A DNA stretch of 40,844 nt, taken from assembly GCA_938010715.1 (NCBI GenBank), contig CALLVG010000203.1, positions 1 through 40,844 on the forward strand. The letters run 5' to 3'. The number at the start of each line of letters is the position of its first letter. Position 1 is the first letter of the stretch. The notes beneath the pieces were generated by a model. It had not been told where the DNA came from. It did no database searches and worked only from the letters and a program-made list of their open reading frames with translations. Made by a program: the position numbers and the translations under genes. Positions 3,042 to 35,502 of this stretch are shown here, piece by piece. The DNA comes from an uncultured Saprospiraceae bacterium (GTDB lineage Bacteria > Bacteroidota > Bacteroidia > Chitinophagales > Saprospiraceae).

Positions 3042-3908
3042 ATGAGTTTAAGACTTAACAAGCTCGGCACAACCAATGAAGCAGAAGCAGAAATGGGCTT
3101 CCTCGAACATCTCGAAGAATTGAGATGGCACATCATTCGTTCTGGCGGGTGGATTTTGTCGTTTGCCGTCATTGCTTTTATGGCAAAAGATTTTGTGTTC
3201 GGCACCTTACTTTTTGGCCCTAAAAATCAAGACTTTTTTTCTTATCGAATGCTTTGCAAATTTTCCAATGCGATTGGTGTAGGAGATAGACTTTGTATGG
3301 TTCCGCCCGAATTTCAGTTACAGGCAGTAGAATTTGGCGAGTTATTTACTTCTCATTTGAAAGTTTCTTTTTTTGTAGGTTTTGCTGCGGCATTTCCTTT
3401 CGTTTTATGGGAGTTCTGGAAATTTATCAAACCTGGCCTTTACGAAAAAGAACAAAAAGCAGCTCGTGGATTTGTATTCGTTTGTTCACTTTTATTCATG
3501 ATTGGTGCTTGTTTTGGCTATTTTGTAATTGCTCCATTTGCCGTTACCTTTTTAGCAGGTTATGAAATCGAAGGCGTACTTGCGCAGGCGGCACTTTCTT
3601 CTTTTGTCAATTATATGGTGATGTTTACCATTCCTGTAGGATTGGTTTTCGAGTTACCAATTTTGATTTATTTTCTTTCCAAAATCGGATTGGTTACGCC
3701 TGAATTTATGAAGACCTACCGCCGACAGGCATTCGTAGTTATATTGATTGCAGCCGCGATTATTACGCCGCCGGATGTGATCACTCAATTCTTGGTCGGT
3801 ATTCCGCTTTTTTTCCTTTATGAAATTAGTATTTTCATATCCGCCAGAGTTGTAAAAAATCAAGAGAAAGCAGAAGCGGAAGCATCAAAAGCACTACAAA
3901 ACACCTAA
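3042..3908 (+). CDS. tatC: Sec-independent (Tat) protein translocase subunit TatC
   Basis: Inner-membrane receptor of the twin-arginine translocase, which recognises RR signal peptides and carries folded proteins across the inner membrane with TatA. At 288 aa with about six hydrophobic segments it fits the family. The cytoplasmic N-terminus carries the hallmark HLEELR (residues 23-28). The first cytoplasmic loop carries KPGLYEKEQ, matching the conserved P-x-LY-x-x-E stretch that contacts signal peptides. The C-terminus is a short charged tail. No tatA/B-like gene is nearby. It ends two bases before the start of the next small membrane gene, so the two are probably cotranscribed and translationally coupled. 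Confidence 0.95.
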   Translation: MSLRLNKLGTTNEAEAEMGFLEHLEELRWHIIRSGGWILSFAVIAFMAKDFVFGTLLFGPKNQDFFSYRMLCKFSNAIGVGDRLCMVPPEFQLQAVEFGELFTSHLKVSFFVGFAAAFPFVLWEFWKFIKPGLYEKEQKAARGFVFVCSLLFMIGACFGYFVIAPFAVTFLAGYEIEGVLAQAALSSFVNYMVMFTIPVGLVFELPILIYFLSKIGLVTPEFMKTYRRQAFVVILIAAAIITPPDVITQFLVGIPLFFLYEISIFISARVVKNQEKAEAEASKALQNT

Positions 3909-3910
3909 AC

Positions 3911-4369
3911 ATGCAAAGAGTATCCACAAATATGACATTGACCTACAAAATCTTTCTACCCACATTTTGGATAGTCTTTTTTGGGATTTTTGGTGGTTAT
4001 GTATGGCTTTACAATACTGAAGATATCGGGAGTATCAACGCCAGTAATTTCAAATTGGTTTATTTACTTTTCTTCGCCATTTTCTTGGCGTTGTTTTACT
4101 TCACTATTATGAGTTTGAAACGCGTCGAAATGGACGCGCAAGGTGTTTATGTGACCAATTATTTCAAACATGCAAAATACCCATACGCCAATATTGAAAA
4201 GATAGTCGAAAGTCCTTTTCCTTTTGTAAAAGTGGTTTCTATCTATTTTAAAGAAGCAGGTCAGTTTGGTGAAAAGGTATTTTTTGTTCCCAGCAAAAAA
4301 CGGTTTCAACAATTTCTAATCAGTCACCCTGAGGTTAGTAAGAATTTAATGGATAAGGCGAGTGATTGA
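3911..4369 (+). CDS. Small membrane protein of unknown function, coupled to tatC
   Basis: 152 aa. Two hydrophobic segments (about residues 8-32 and 45-70) precede a soluble domain of about 80 residues with alternating strands (VEMDAQGVYVTNYF, YANIEKIVES, VFFVPSKKRF). This layout resembles small bacterial PH-like membrane proteins. I do not recognise the family and assign no function. The ATG lies two bases after the tatC stop; a second in-frame ATG at 3941 would remove ten residues. The tight spacing suggests shared expression with tatC, not necessarily a role in Tat export. Confidence 0.8.
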   Translation: MQRVSTNMTLTYKIFLPTFWIVFFGIFGGYVWLYNTEDIGSINASNFKLVYLLFFAIFLALFYFTIMSLKRVEMDAQGVYVTNYFKHAKYPYANIEKIVESPFPFVKVVSIYFKEAGQFGEKVFFVPSKKRFQQFLISHPEVSKNLMDKASD

Positions 4370-4764
4370 TTTTTTGATAATTTTAGAGGAAGGACCGCTT
4401 CGCTATGAGAAAAGACACAAAACCGACAACAAATAAGTGTGTATTGTTTCTTTGTATTATATAGAGTCCACTAATGGTTTAGTGAAGTGGTCTAAAAAAT
4501 ATATATTTGCAGAAGAATGTTAATGAATTCCATGTTTTTTGAAATAATGTCTTATTATAGTATCTTTAATTTAAGGTTCTGGAAGTAAACGTCTGTGAAT
4601 TTTTGAGTTTTAAATTGATCCCTTTATAAAGTTTCAAAGACAGTATGATTTGACTGAAATTTATCTCAATCAACCTTTTATAACTTCCAAAAGTTTAAAT
4701 CAGTTCTTAAACTTAAACTTAAACTTAAACTTAAACTTAAACTTAAACTTAAACTTAAACTTAA
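4370..4764. other. 395-nt AT-rich leader region before the metalloprotease
   Basis: No credible ORF. It holds a Bacteroidota-type -7 box (4502-4509) and ends in the CTTAAA hexamer array. If that promoter is used, the protease mRNA has an untranslated leader of about 250 nt. Confidence 0.5.
4478..4509 (+). promoter_or_regulatory. Candidate Bacteroidota sigma-ABfr-type promoter
   Basis: TATATTTG at 4502-4509 fits the TAnnTTTG -7 consensus exactly. TTTA at 4478-4481 is a weak -33 element with a 20-nt spacer. It points toward the metalloprotease about 250 nt downstream. A chance match is possible in DNA this AT-rich. Confidence 0.4.
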
Positions 4765-4765
4765 A
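4706..4765 (+). repeat. Ten perfect tandem CTTAAA hexamers abutting a start codon
   Basis: Ten uninterrupted 6-bp units; the last A is the first base of the metalloprotease ATG. In the gene's frame each unit reads ACT TAA, so upstream translation is blocked in every unit. Because the unit is six bases, gain or loss of copies would not shift the frame but would change leader length and spacing. Confidence 0.95.
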
Positions 4766-6684
4766 TGATTAAAAATTTCCAGCATCATGTCACTGACGTG
4801 AAGATTTACACCGCATCACCTCATAGAATTTTGTTAGCAATAATTCTATATTTAGTGAGTTTCAATCTATATTCACAAGACGATGAATTGATCTCAATAA
4901 TTTCTACAGAAGAAGCTAATCTTAATGCATTTGATCAAAATCATTACGATTTTCTACTAAGCGACTCCTTAATTGATACAATTTTTTTAGTTGAATTTAA
5001 AAATGTGACTGGATTACTTGTAAATAGCCAGCTATCTTTTAAATTACCCGAATATAATGAGATTACAGCTAATACTGTATTTGTTAATTACAAAAACGAA
5101 GGGAACTACGAATGGGCAGGAAACTTATCGAACTACTCTGGACAAATAATTATAGCTGACAAATGGGCAGGGGGAGTAGCAGCAATACAGATTAATCATG
5201 ACTTCTATGACTTGTTTCCCTTAAATGAAAACATTCATGTGTTAAGAAAATTTAATCCTGCACCAAAAGATCAAGTTTGTAGTGTAGGACAGAACCTCAA
5301 TGAAAGAATAGGAGAAACAAAACTTAAAATGGATGATTGTTTAGAAGAATTTAATACTTGCAGCGCGGTTATTGATGTTCTCGTATTAATACCACAAGAT
5401 GGTCAAGCTTGGTTAGAAAATCAATTTATTTTCTTGCCAAATATTATAATACCTCTATATCTGGACCTTGGTTTTTTAGCCGTAAACGTAGCTTTTACAA
5501 ACAGTGAAATAGTTAACAAATCCATTCAGTGGGAGTACGATTTTATTAATTTTCATTATGGTCTTCAACCATACTCAAGTACGTTTGCTCTTACGAGGTT
5601 AAGCCAAATAGGATCGAGTCTAAGAGATCAACATGCTGCTGATATAGTCGTGATGTTAACAGGTACTAATTTGTCGGGTGGAGCCGGTATAGCCATGTGT
5701 ACTAACATTAATAATAATGATCCTGATTGTGCATTTGCAATATCTGAGCTCCCTTGGCACTTGGCACCACGGTGGACTACTGCACACGAAATAGGCCACC
5801 TTTTGGGTGCAGATCATGACTTTTCAAGTTCATTTTGCAACAATGGCTTTACTATAGGAAATAATAGATTTCAAAAAACTATTATGGCGACTTGGTCTGG
5901 CGTCCAGAACCCACCAGATCAAAGAGTTCTACATTATTCAAATCCTGATGTAATTTTCACAGATGGAAACCCAACTGGCGGAGATGGAACAGATAATGCG
6001 AAAGCAATTCGGAATGTAGGTTGCAGAGTTAGTAAATTTAGACAAAACAGTACACTTAAAGTAGTTATTGAGGCAGAAATTAATGTATGTCATCCTCAGA
6101 ATAGTCCAACTCGTTTAAATTGCTCAGTATTTGAACCTATCGGTAACCCTGGTATTCCTCCATATACTTTTGAATGGACTTGGAATCTGAATGGAATATT
6201 TACTCCCATGAATCCAGGTATTCTTATTGGGAAAAACCAAAGTGAGTTGTTCGATGTTCCAGGGATTTTCGGTAATATATATATTCAAGTTAAAGTAACA
6301 TCGTCTGACGGAATTATAGTAACAAAAACACACCCAATGTATGTTCTTGATGGTTCAATGTTTCCTTGTTCAGGACCGCCAGATGATGATGATTTCATTA
6401 TTAAGCCTACAACAATTATTAAAGATGCTATTTTTCAACCCAATCCTACATCTGGTATTGGCTCAATATCATTTAATTTAGAGCAAGATGATGAAATTGA
6501 AATTGGCATAGTTAATATGATGGGAAAAAGAATTAAAAATTTACATAATGGTTTCCTCAGCCAAGGTTTTCATTCCTTTTCTGTTGATTTAAGTAACAGC
6601 TCTAATGGACTTTATTTTTGGAATATTAAAGGAAAGAAAGAACTCTACTCCATTAGAAAAAAGATTTCAAAAATCAATAATTAA
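4765..6684 (+). CDS. Secreted metzincin zinc metalloprotease with T9SS sorting domain
   Basis: 639 aa. A Sec signal peptide with an unusually long, polar n-region ends near residue 38 (hydrophobic core ILLAIILYLVSFNLYS, then QDD). The catalytic domain covers about 195-425 and carries HEIGHLLGADHD: zinc ligands His341, His345 and His351, base Glu342, and Met374 in the IMA Met-turn followed by YSNP. This is the reprolysin-like (M12B-type) metzincin pattern. Paired cysteines lie around the active site. A PKD/Ig-like segment follows (about 440-540), then a T9SS type-A C-terminal sorting domain (about 560-639: NPTSG, MMGKRI, GLYFWNIKG). So it should be secreted and anchored or released at the cell surface. 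The ATG is fixed by in-frame stops in the hexamer array. By eye the gene is more AT-rich than its neighbours. The substrate is unknown. Confidence 0.9.
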   Translation: MIKNFQHHVTDVKIYTASPHRILLAIILYLVSFNLYSQDDELISIISTEEANLNAFDQNHYDFLLSDSLIDTIFLVEFKNVTGLLVNSQLSFKLPEYNEITANTVFVNYKNEGNYEWAGNLSNYSGQIIIADKWAGGVAAIQINHDFYDLFPLNENIHVLRKFNPAPKDQVCSVGQNLNERIGETKLKMDDCLEEFNTCSAVIDVLVLIPQDGQAWLENQFIFLPNIIIPLYLDLGFLAVNVAFTNSEIVNKSIQWEYDFINFHYGLQPYSSTFALTRLSQIGSSLRDQHAADIVVMLTGTNLSGGAGIAMCTNINNNDPDCAFAISELPWHLAPRWTTAHEIGHLLGADHDFSSSFCNNGFTIGNNRFQKTIMATWSGVQNPPDQRVLHYSNPDVIFTDGNPTGGDGTDNAKAIRNVGCRVSKFRQNSTLKVVIEAEINVCHPQNSPTRLNCSVFEPIGNPGIPPYTFEWTWNLNGIFTPMNPGILIGKNQSELFDVPGIFGNIYIQVKVTSSDGIIVTKTHPMYVLDGSMFPCSGPPDDDDFIIKPTTIIKDAIFQPNPTSGIGSISFNLEQDDEIEIGIVNMMGKRIKNLHNGFLSQGFHSFSVDLSNSSNGLYFWNIKGKKELYSIRKKISKINN

Positions 6685-6791
6685 TAATTTTCTCCCAAAC
6701 TTCTATTCTACCCCTTAATTATTGTTGCTTCAATAAAGTTTGTGAACAAAGGGTGAGATGTTAATTAATAATAGATCTAAAAATAGAATTT

Positions 6792-7352
6792 ATGAAAAAT
6801 TGGTGTTTTGTCGTAATAATCATATCTATATTTTCTTGTGCTAAAGATGAAATCCAAACTCAGATAGATGAAGAAAAGTTATTTTCTGGAAATCAAATGT
6901 ATGGTGAGGCTGAAGGATTGCGTAATGGAGAATTGTGGAAAGCTTCAACTTATGCATTGTATATAGAGGAACCATACAATTATTATGGCTTATTTTTCCG
7001 AACATTTAGTATTGAAGGTTTCAAACGTGAAGACCTCGTTTTTAATGAAATATTTGATGATACTTCTAAACAATTGATAGATAATAAATGGGAAGATCTT
7101 GATGGATTCGTAGGTTCTTTATATTCAAGATTAGAATCAGATGGAGACTTGCTTACATCTGTATATAAGCTAGACAACGAACATAGTCAAAATTGTTTCG
7201 AACTAACTCAAATTGATTCCATGACTATTTCAGGGACTTTCTCTGCTAAATTTATTTTGGAAACAGAAAATATTACCTATCCTTACCCTGCAACTGTAGA
7301 GTTTGAAGATGTAATTTTTTCAATGCAAATATTAGAGGAAGATCCAGAGTAA
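6792..7352 (+). CDS. Probable surface-exposed lipoprotein, unknown function
   Basis: 186 aa. A short lipoprotein signal peptide ends in IFSC, with Cys16 as the lipidated residue. The next residues are A-K-D-E, matching the K-(D/E)2 lipoprotein export signal described in Bacteroidota, so it may be flipped to the outer face of the outer membrane. The mature part is acidic, beta-rich by inspection, and has one further cysteine (QNCFEL). I do not recognise a domain. It follows the metalloprotease by 107 nt on the same strand and shares its AT-rich style, so the two may form one transcription unit. Confidence 0.8.
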   Translation: MKNWCFVVIIISIFSCAKDEIQTQIDEEKLFSGNQMYGEAEGLRNGELWKASTYALYIEEPYNYYGLFFRTFSIEGFKREDLVFNEIFDDTSKQLIDNKWEDLDGFVGSLYSRLESDGDLLTSVYKLDNEHSQNCFELTQIDSMTISGTFSAKFILETENITYPYPATVEFEDVIFSMQILEEDPE

Positions 7353-35382: not shown

Positions 35383-35502
35383 TCAGGTTATTAGTTAATT
35401 AGTCAATATGAGTTCACAAAAAAGTATTGATGGTTGTAACCTGTTGATGATGAGTAAGTTGACAACTAATAAACTAATAAACTAATAAACTAATAAACTA
35501 AA
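35383..35502. repeat. Octamer tandem repeat with complementary left arm
   Basis: Four perfect ACTAATAA units plus ACTAA fill 35465-35501, directly beside the thymidine kinase stop codon. Upstream, TTATTAGTTAATTAGTCAA (about 35394-35412) is complementary to the array, so the whole 120-bp gap can fold back. Confidence 0.7.

Follow-up and report, generated by a model that had tools for sequence, protein, structure and literature searches.

A perfect (CTTAAA)10 array that ends in the start codon of a secreted metzincin gene is probably a slippage-expanded repeat of a polar gene-boundary class

The window, that is, the whole 40,844-nt stretch of DNA analysed here, comes from an uncultured Saprospiraceae bacterium and carries a gene for a secreted metzincin whose start codon is joined to a tandem hexamer array (Table 1). 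The ORF of the metzincin was intact, and its product matched an M12B reprolysin-like peptidase and a T9SS tail above the Pfam cut-offs; the tail scored 36.8 bits against PF18962 (cut-off 27) and 24.8 against TIGR04183 (23). The motif HEIGHLLGADH was present, followed downstream by the Met-turn-like TIMATW, and the sequence weakly matched the catalytic domain of ADAMTS-5. A signal peptide was recognized by eye, and the T9SS translocon SprA was found to be encoded elsewhere in the same genome (2190 bits). Since it carries a signal peptide and a C-terminal sorting domain that exceeds the cut-off, and since the genome encodes a translocon, the protein has the features of a T9SS cargo, which agrees with the preliminary description of the gene as one for a T9SS-exported metalloprotease.

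Table 1. Features of the metzincin locus and AACYAATA/AACTTAATA arrays of the same genome (positions in the window unless a contig is named)
Feature	Position	Strand	Basis or remark
152-aa membrane protein gene	3911..4369	+	Upstream; paired with tatC (3042-3908); neighbourhood comparison
TATATTTG, sole TAnnTTTG (-7 element) in leader	4502..4509	+	Putative promoter motif; single motif without clear -33 partner
AAGTTTAA-ATCAGTTC-TTAAACTT, 8-bp inverted repeat	4691..4714	+	Sequence; significance uncertain
(CTTAAA)10 perfect tandem array	4706..4765	+	Sequence, Tandem Repeats Finder, shuffles
639-aa secreted M12B-type metzincin, T9SS type A sorting tail	4765..6684	+	Pfam/NCBIfam domain matches
186-aa putative lipoprotein	6792..7352	+	Also follows the protease in G002 and G035 and, at a greater distance, in G008
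AACYAATA/AACTTAATA array	35464-35501		Abuts stop of thymidine kinase gene
AACYAATA/AACTTAATA array	G000:C31:9827-9880		
AACYAATA/AACTTAATA array	G000:C107:7484-7518		
AACYAATA/AACTTAATA array	G000:C135:3073		
AACYAATA/AACTTAATA array	G000:C191:5757		
AACYAATA/AACTTAATA array	G000:C233:9905-9951		
AACYAATA/AACTTAATA array	G000:C246:1301		

The gene downstream of the metzincin encodes a putative lipoprotein for which no Pfam or NCBIfam match was found. Homologs of this lipoprotein adjoined homologs of the protease in two related genomes and lay approximately 0.6 kb further on in a third (G008). Because the homologs are adjacent in relatives, the protease and the lipoprotein are a conserved pair, and the lipoprotein could be a cognate partner or an inhibitor of the metzincin. 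The pair of metzincin and small lipoprotein (4765-7352) was conserved in several genera of the family. On the upstream side, tatC and the gene of the 152-aa membrane protein formed a conserved pair, which recurred in three further genomes of the genus, where the protease did not follow.

Ten CTTAAA units without a single mismatch were read directly in the sequence, and Tandem Repeats Finder returned the same interval (4706-4765) with period 6, 10.0 copies, 100% matches and no indels. The final base of the array is the A of the protease ATG (4765-4767); the array is thus intergenic, and the distance from its 3' end to the start is 0 nt. The earlier account of a perfect ten-unit array running into the ATG was therefore accurate. 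Chance was excluded, since eight overlapping 18-nt matches were counted, compared with 0.33 ± 0.57 in shuffled sequences, even when three mismatches were allowed. No other (CTTAAA)3 was found in the genome (3.6 Mb in 314 contigs, 76.6% complete). The first unit of the array is also the right arm of the 8-bp inverted repeat listed in Table 1, whose left arm, AAGTTTAA, is located at 4691-4698. No strong RNA or DNA structure was detected (z of -1.4 and 0.1), and no terminator or sigma-70-type site close to the array scored above shuffled sequences.

The TAA of every unit is in frame with the ATG (4708 and 4765 agree modulo 3), as had been claimed. Because each unit contains this in-frame stop, no start is possible upstream of 4765. 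The accompanying claim that the stops isolate the gene from upstream translation carries little weight, since the remaining two frames across the array are open, reading (LK)n and (LN)n, and the upstream gene ends 395 nt ahead of the protease start, which leaves such isolation little work to do. An upstream ORF or translational coupling via the array was considered and rejected: the LK frame lacks a start, and the LN frame contains only a TTG-started ORF of 40 codons. The GTG at 4798 (codon 12) likewise yields a sensible signal peptide and is a candidate alternative start; in that case, the last base of the array would lie 33 nt ahead of the start. The ATG at 4765 was favoured because the ortholog in G002, which is 38% identical to the protease, has an equally long N-terminus from its own ATG. 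The array was absent from this nearest ortholog and from other homologs, and, by this comparison, it is lineage-specific.

Expression signals of the Bacteroidota type, which the preliminary description had assumed, were recovered in this genome. The motif TAnnTTTG was enriched 4-fold upstream of its genes (106 compared with 27.6, of 315), and the gene starts displayed an A-rich region at -10 to -13. CTTAAA was not enriched as a common leader motif of the genome (12 observed, 10.3 expected). Approximately 190-200 nt separate the array from the TAnnTTTG motif of the protease leader; if this motif is the promoter, the leader would be approximately 250 nt long, and the array would be located toward its 3' end. 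Because the only consensus promoter lies approximately 200 nt upstream, the array does not serve as a spacer within a promoter. Relative to the start, adenines of the array occupy -6 and -12 to -14, and -3 is T. In F. johnsoniae, adenines at -6, -12 and -13 raise initiation, and T at -3 is unfavourable (PMC6847099). For arrays of at least five units, the region from -30 to -1 is identical at any copy number. The predicted openness of the region from -20 to +15 was nearly flat from 5 to 30 units for three assumed transcript starts, and the initiation region was predicted to close only when almost all units were removed. Since the predicted accessibility is flat, slippage around ten units should not act at initiation; effects on the transcript, whether through the length of the leader, through RNA stability or through transcription, remain possible. 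A seemingly conserved leader in another genome, G001 (45 bits), was dismissed, since the similarity is of the AT-rich kind and precedes an unrelated transporter gene.

Other arrays of this genome were surveyed in a 1.33-Mb sample, a non-random 40% of the contigs in which approximately 85% of the bases lie inside ORFs of at least 100 codons. Perfect 6-9-mers of at least 22 nt and at least 2.8 copies were counted; 21 arrays with diverse units were found, 16 of which were intergenic. Therefore, the CTTAAA array is one of a genome-wide set, which by rough extrapolation comprises some 40-55 arrays. In all seven AACYAATA/AACTTAATA arrays (Table 1), the distance between the 3' end and a gene boundary was 2-12 nt; the boundary was the stop of a reverse gene in six cases and a start in one. 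These arrays shared a 5' inverted-repeat flank, AACY-N15-RGTT, with the core TTGAT or close to it, and are possibly a 3'-end element. AACTTA is a rotation of CTTAAA, and the flank of the CTTAAA array contains AACT-N16-AGTT without TTGAT; the array resembles the AACYAATA/AACTTAATA family in polarity and unit but not in flank. G+C-richer 7-8-mer arrays, AATCGGC, GAGTTGCC, GGCAGTC and TCGGCAAC, were also observed (L044:1-79, L094:1-34, L130:1409-1460 and L175:75-114). Each of these adjoins a palindrome-like AAAATCKWMGATTTT, and two start at a contig end.

Among 398 genomes of the family, (CTTAAA)4 occurred in eight, mostly of one second genus (g4), where CTTAAA arrays are common, and the reversed control pattern was nearly absent. 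In the small set of g4 arrays that had not been chosen by context, and with crude ORF-based gene calls, 11 of 15 had a gene boundary no more than 25 nt from their 3' end, compared with 0 of 12 for the 5' end (Fisher, 1.8e-4; p<5e-5 in a test of random placement). Arrays of the same unit elsewhere thus follow one polarity. These 11 boundaries comprised four starts and seven stops of reverse (convergent) genes; a larger, selected set comprised 19 starts and 16 stops. The arrays are oriented according to the gene boundary rather than to the direction in which the gene is translated. When an ATG was present 4-20 nt past the array, a real ORF followed CTTAAA in 19 of 29 cases, compared with 1 of 19 in the TTTAAG orientation. 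The genes following g4 arrays, whose N-termini were read by eye, included those for GreA, ribosomal protein S6, PurQ and a nucleotide-sugar epimerase. Because the g4 arrays are polar at both starts and stops, it may be concluded that gene adjacency is the rule for such repeats, and this adjacency is neither start-specific nor surface-protein-specific.

An inverted arm, AAGTTTAAG, was present 46-138 nt to the 5' side of 18 of 50 g4 arrays and to the 3' side of 0 of 55. Therefore, many g4 intergenic regions resemble palindromes of the form (TTTAAG)n-centre-(CTTAAA)n, of which the inverted repeat at the window array would be a single-copy form of uncertain significance. Several g4 arrays (L063, L085, L064, L071, L081 and L088) adjoin short hairpin-like or dispersed intergenic sequences that are repeated between loci, and similar copies of these loci differ in unit number. 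Since the window array is the sole CTTAAA array of its own genome, it was grouped with those of g4 by unit and polarity, not by flanks. The start-fused form, (CTTAAA)3TG, was found at three places in a collection of 84,980 species, at none of which it formed a start codon, and among 395 genomes of the phylum only in the window array. At another locus (L150), three CTTAAA units were located 11 nt ahead of the start of a secreted-protein gene.

Taken as a whole, the array is probably a slippage-expanded simple sequence repeat of the polar gene-boundary class, near-neutral for protease expression. AACTTA-like tandem units (AACTTA, equivalent to CTTAAA, as well as AACYAATA and AACTTAATA) would accumulate in the intergenic DNA of the family and would keep a fixed polarity, such that the 3' end is directed at the closest boundary, either a start or the stop of a convergent gene. 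As the boundary here is the metzincin start, the array makes up the last 59 nt of the leader. It would be transcribed from the distant promoter as an A/U-rich, weakly structured spacer, the adenines of which would permit ordinary SD-less initiation. Its copy number probably drifts by replication slippage; a change around ten units would leave initiation almost unaffected and alter leader length alone, and any effect on expression would be modest and exerted via mRNA level or stability. Viewed by itself, the array could be taken for the switch of a secreted protease. The attraction of the family's tandem repeats to gene boundaries, with fixed polarity and at both starts and stops, provides a simpler reason for its position and warns against inferring phase variation from location only. 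Two features count against this explanation, namely, the exact abutment, where g4 arrays typically leave 4-19 nt, and the ten units, which make the array longer than most; both could mean selection. The lack of further CTTAAA arrays in the same genome and the departure of the flank from that of the AACYAATA/AACTTAATA family also speak against it. CTTAAA-type arrays might be functional polar boundary elements at both gene ends, arms of (TTTAAG)n...(CTTAAA)n palindromes, and the window array might have grown to the start and tune the secreted protease operon, but this is distinctly doubtful.

The preliminary description had proposed rheostat-like phase variation of the protease. In a reading of this kind, the gain or loss of units would grade expression of the protease operon via promoter spacing or leader length, as in uspA2 and hmwA. 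This reading is unlikely, even though a perfect array of ten units is long enough for slippage, the protease is exported to the surface, and both precedents are published (PMC7302503, PMC2424069). A six-base unit outside the ORF is unable to shift the frame, and the array is not located between promoter elements, the sole consensus promoter being far upstream. A rheostat at the start codon is also not supported, given the constancy of the initiation region from five units upwards and its flat predicted accessibility. Likewise, the supposed link to surface proteins was not sustained, since g4 arrays precede greA, rpsF, purQ and other housekeeping genes and are equally found at stops.

That the CTTAAA repeat of the leader serves translation as an element bound by, e.g., bS1 or a cold-shock protein, and is hence placed before starts, is very unlikely. 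The excess of real starts after CTTAAA in g4, the adenines at initiation-raising positions and a like proposal for TAACTGA (PMC4679880) speak for it, but the boundary rule explains the polarity, and CTTAAA equally abuts reverse genes at their stops, a position in which it does not form a leader. Moreover, the T at -3 is of the unfavourable kind, and the leaders of the same genome show no enrichment of CTTAAA. Little probability is also given to a chance landing, that is, a neutral intergenic array ending at the ATG without any boundary rule. Given 336 possible placements in the gap and the number of arrays estimated genome-wide, exact abutment of some start would, by a rough estimate, not be very rare; however, the polar boundary association of the g4 arrays and of the AACYAATA arrays in the same genome is far from chance.

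Comparison with known systems qualified the novelty that had been claimed. No paper on CTTAAA arrays or on a repeat-controlled T9SS cargo was found in the open-licence literature, and, in the collections scanned, (CTTAAA)3TG forms a start codon only here, but repeats near starts (PMC4679880) and graded leader repeats (PMC7302503, PMC2424069) are already known. The latter may serve as functional precedents by analogy. In Moraxella catarrhalis uspA2, as here, a tandem repeat occupies the leader of a surface-protein gene, and mRNA levels differ up to 3.4-fold, in a graded manner, between AGAT copy numbers; in contrast, that array is located 132 bp upstream in the tabulated strains, and its variation and effect were measured (PMC7302503). 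In Haemophilus influenzae hmw1A/hmw2A, non-frame-shifting repeats upstream of an exported-protein gene also produce stepwise change, transcripts declining as the number of 7-bp repeats rises (PMC2424069), but those repeats are described as lying inside the promoter and acting on transcript level, whereas the present array lies approximately 190 nt past the only promoter-like site. The many perfect, mostly intergenic 6-9-mer arrays of the present genome also recall the long simple sequence repeats of the 5-11-nt class (Mrazek et al. 2007, as cited in PMC4679880), which were surveyed in the complete genomes then available; the summary of that work contains no mention of polarity relative to gene boundaries.

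The closest known kind is formed by the polar TAACTGA gene-boundary arrays of Beggiatoaceae, Cyanobacteria and some Bacteroidetes (MacGregor 2015; PMC4679880), among which tandem heptamers that stop 1 nt short of a start codon were described. The unit is likewise short and AT-rich; its arrays are intergenic, often terminate between 1 nt and some tens of nt ahead of a start and occur before essential genes. Their polarity is that of CTTAAA in g4; in Flexibacter litoralis, they are forward at starts and reverse just past a stop (PMC4679880). The TAACTGA unit differs in having seven bases of another sequence, compared with six in CTTAAA, and forms many short arrays, whereas the genome studied here has one long array, which takes in the first base of the start codon. 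The question raised is why slippage arrays hold one orientation to gene ends, as the published TAACTGA repeats already do.
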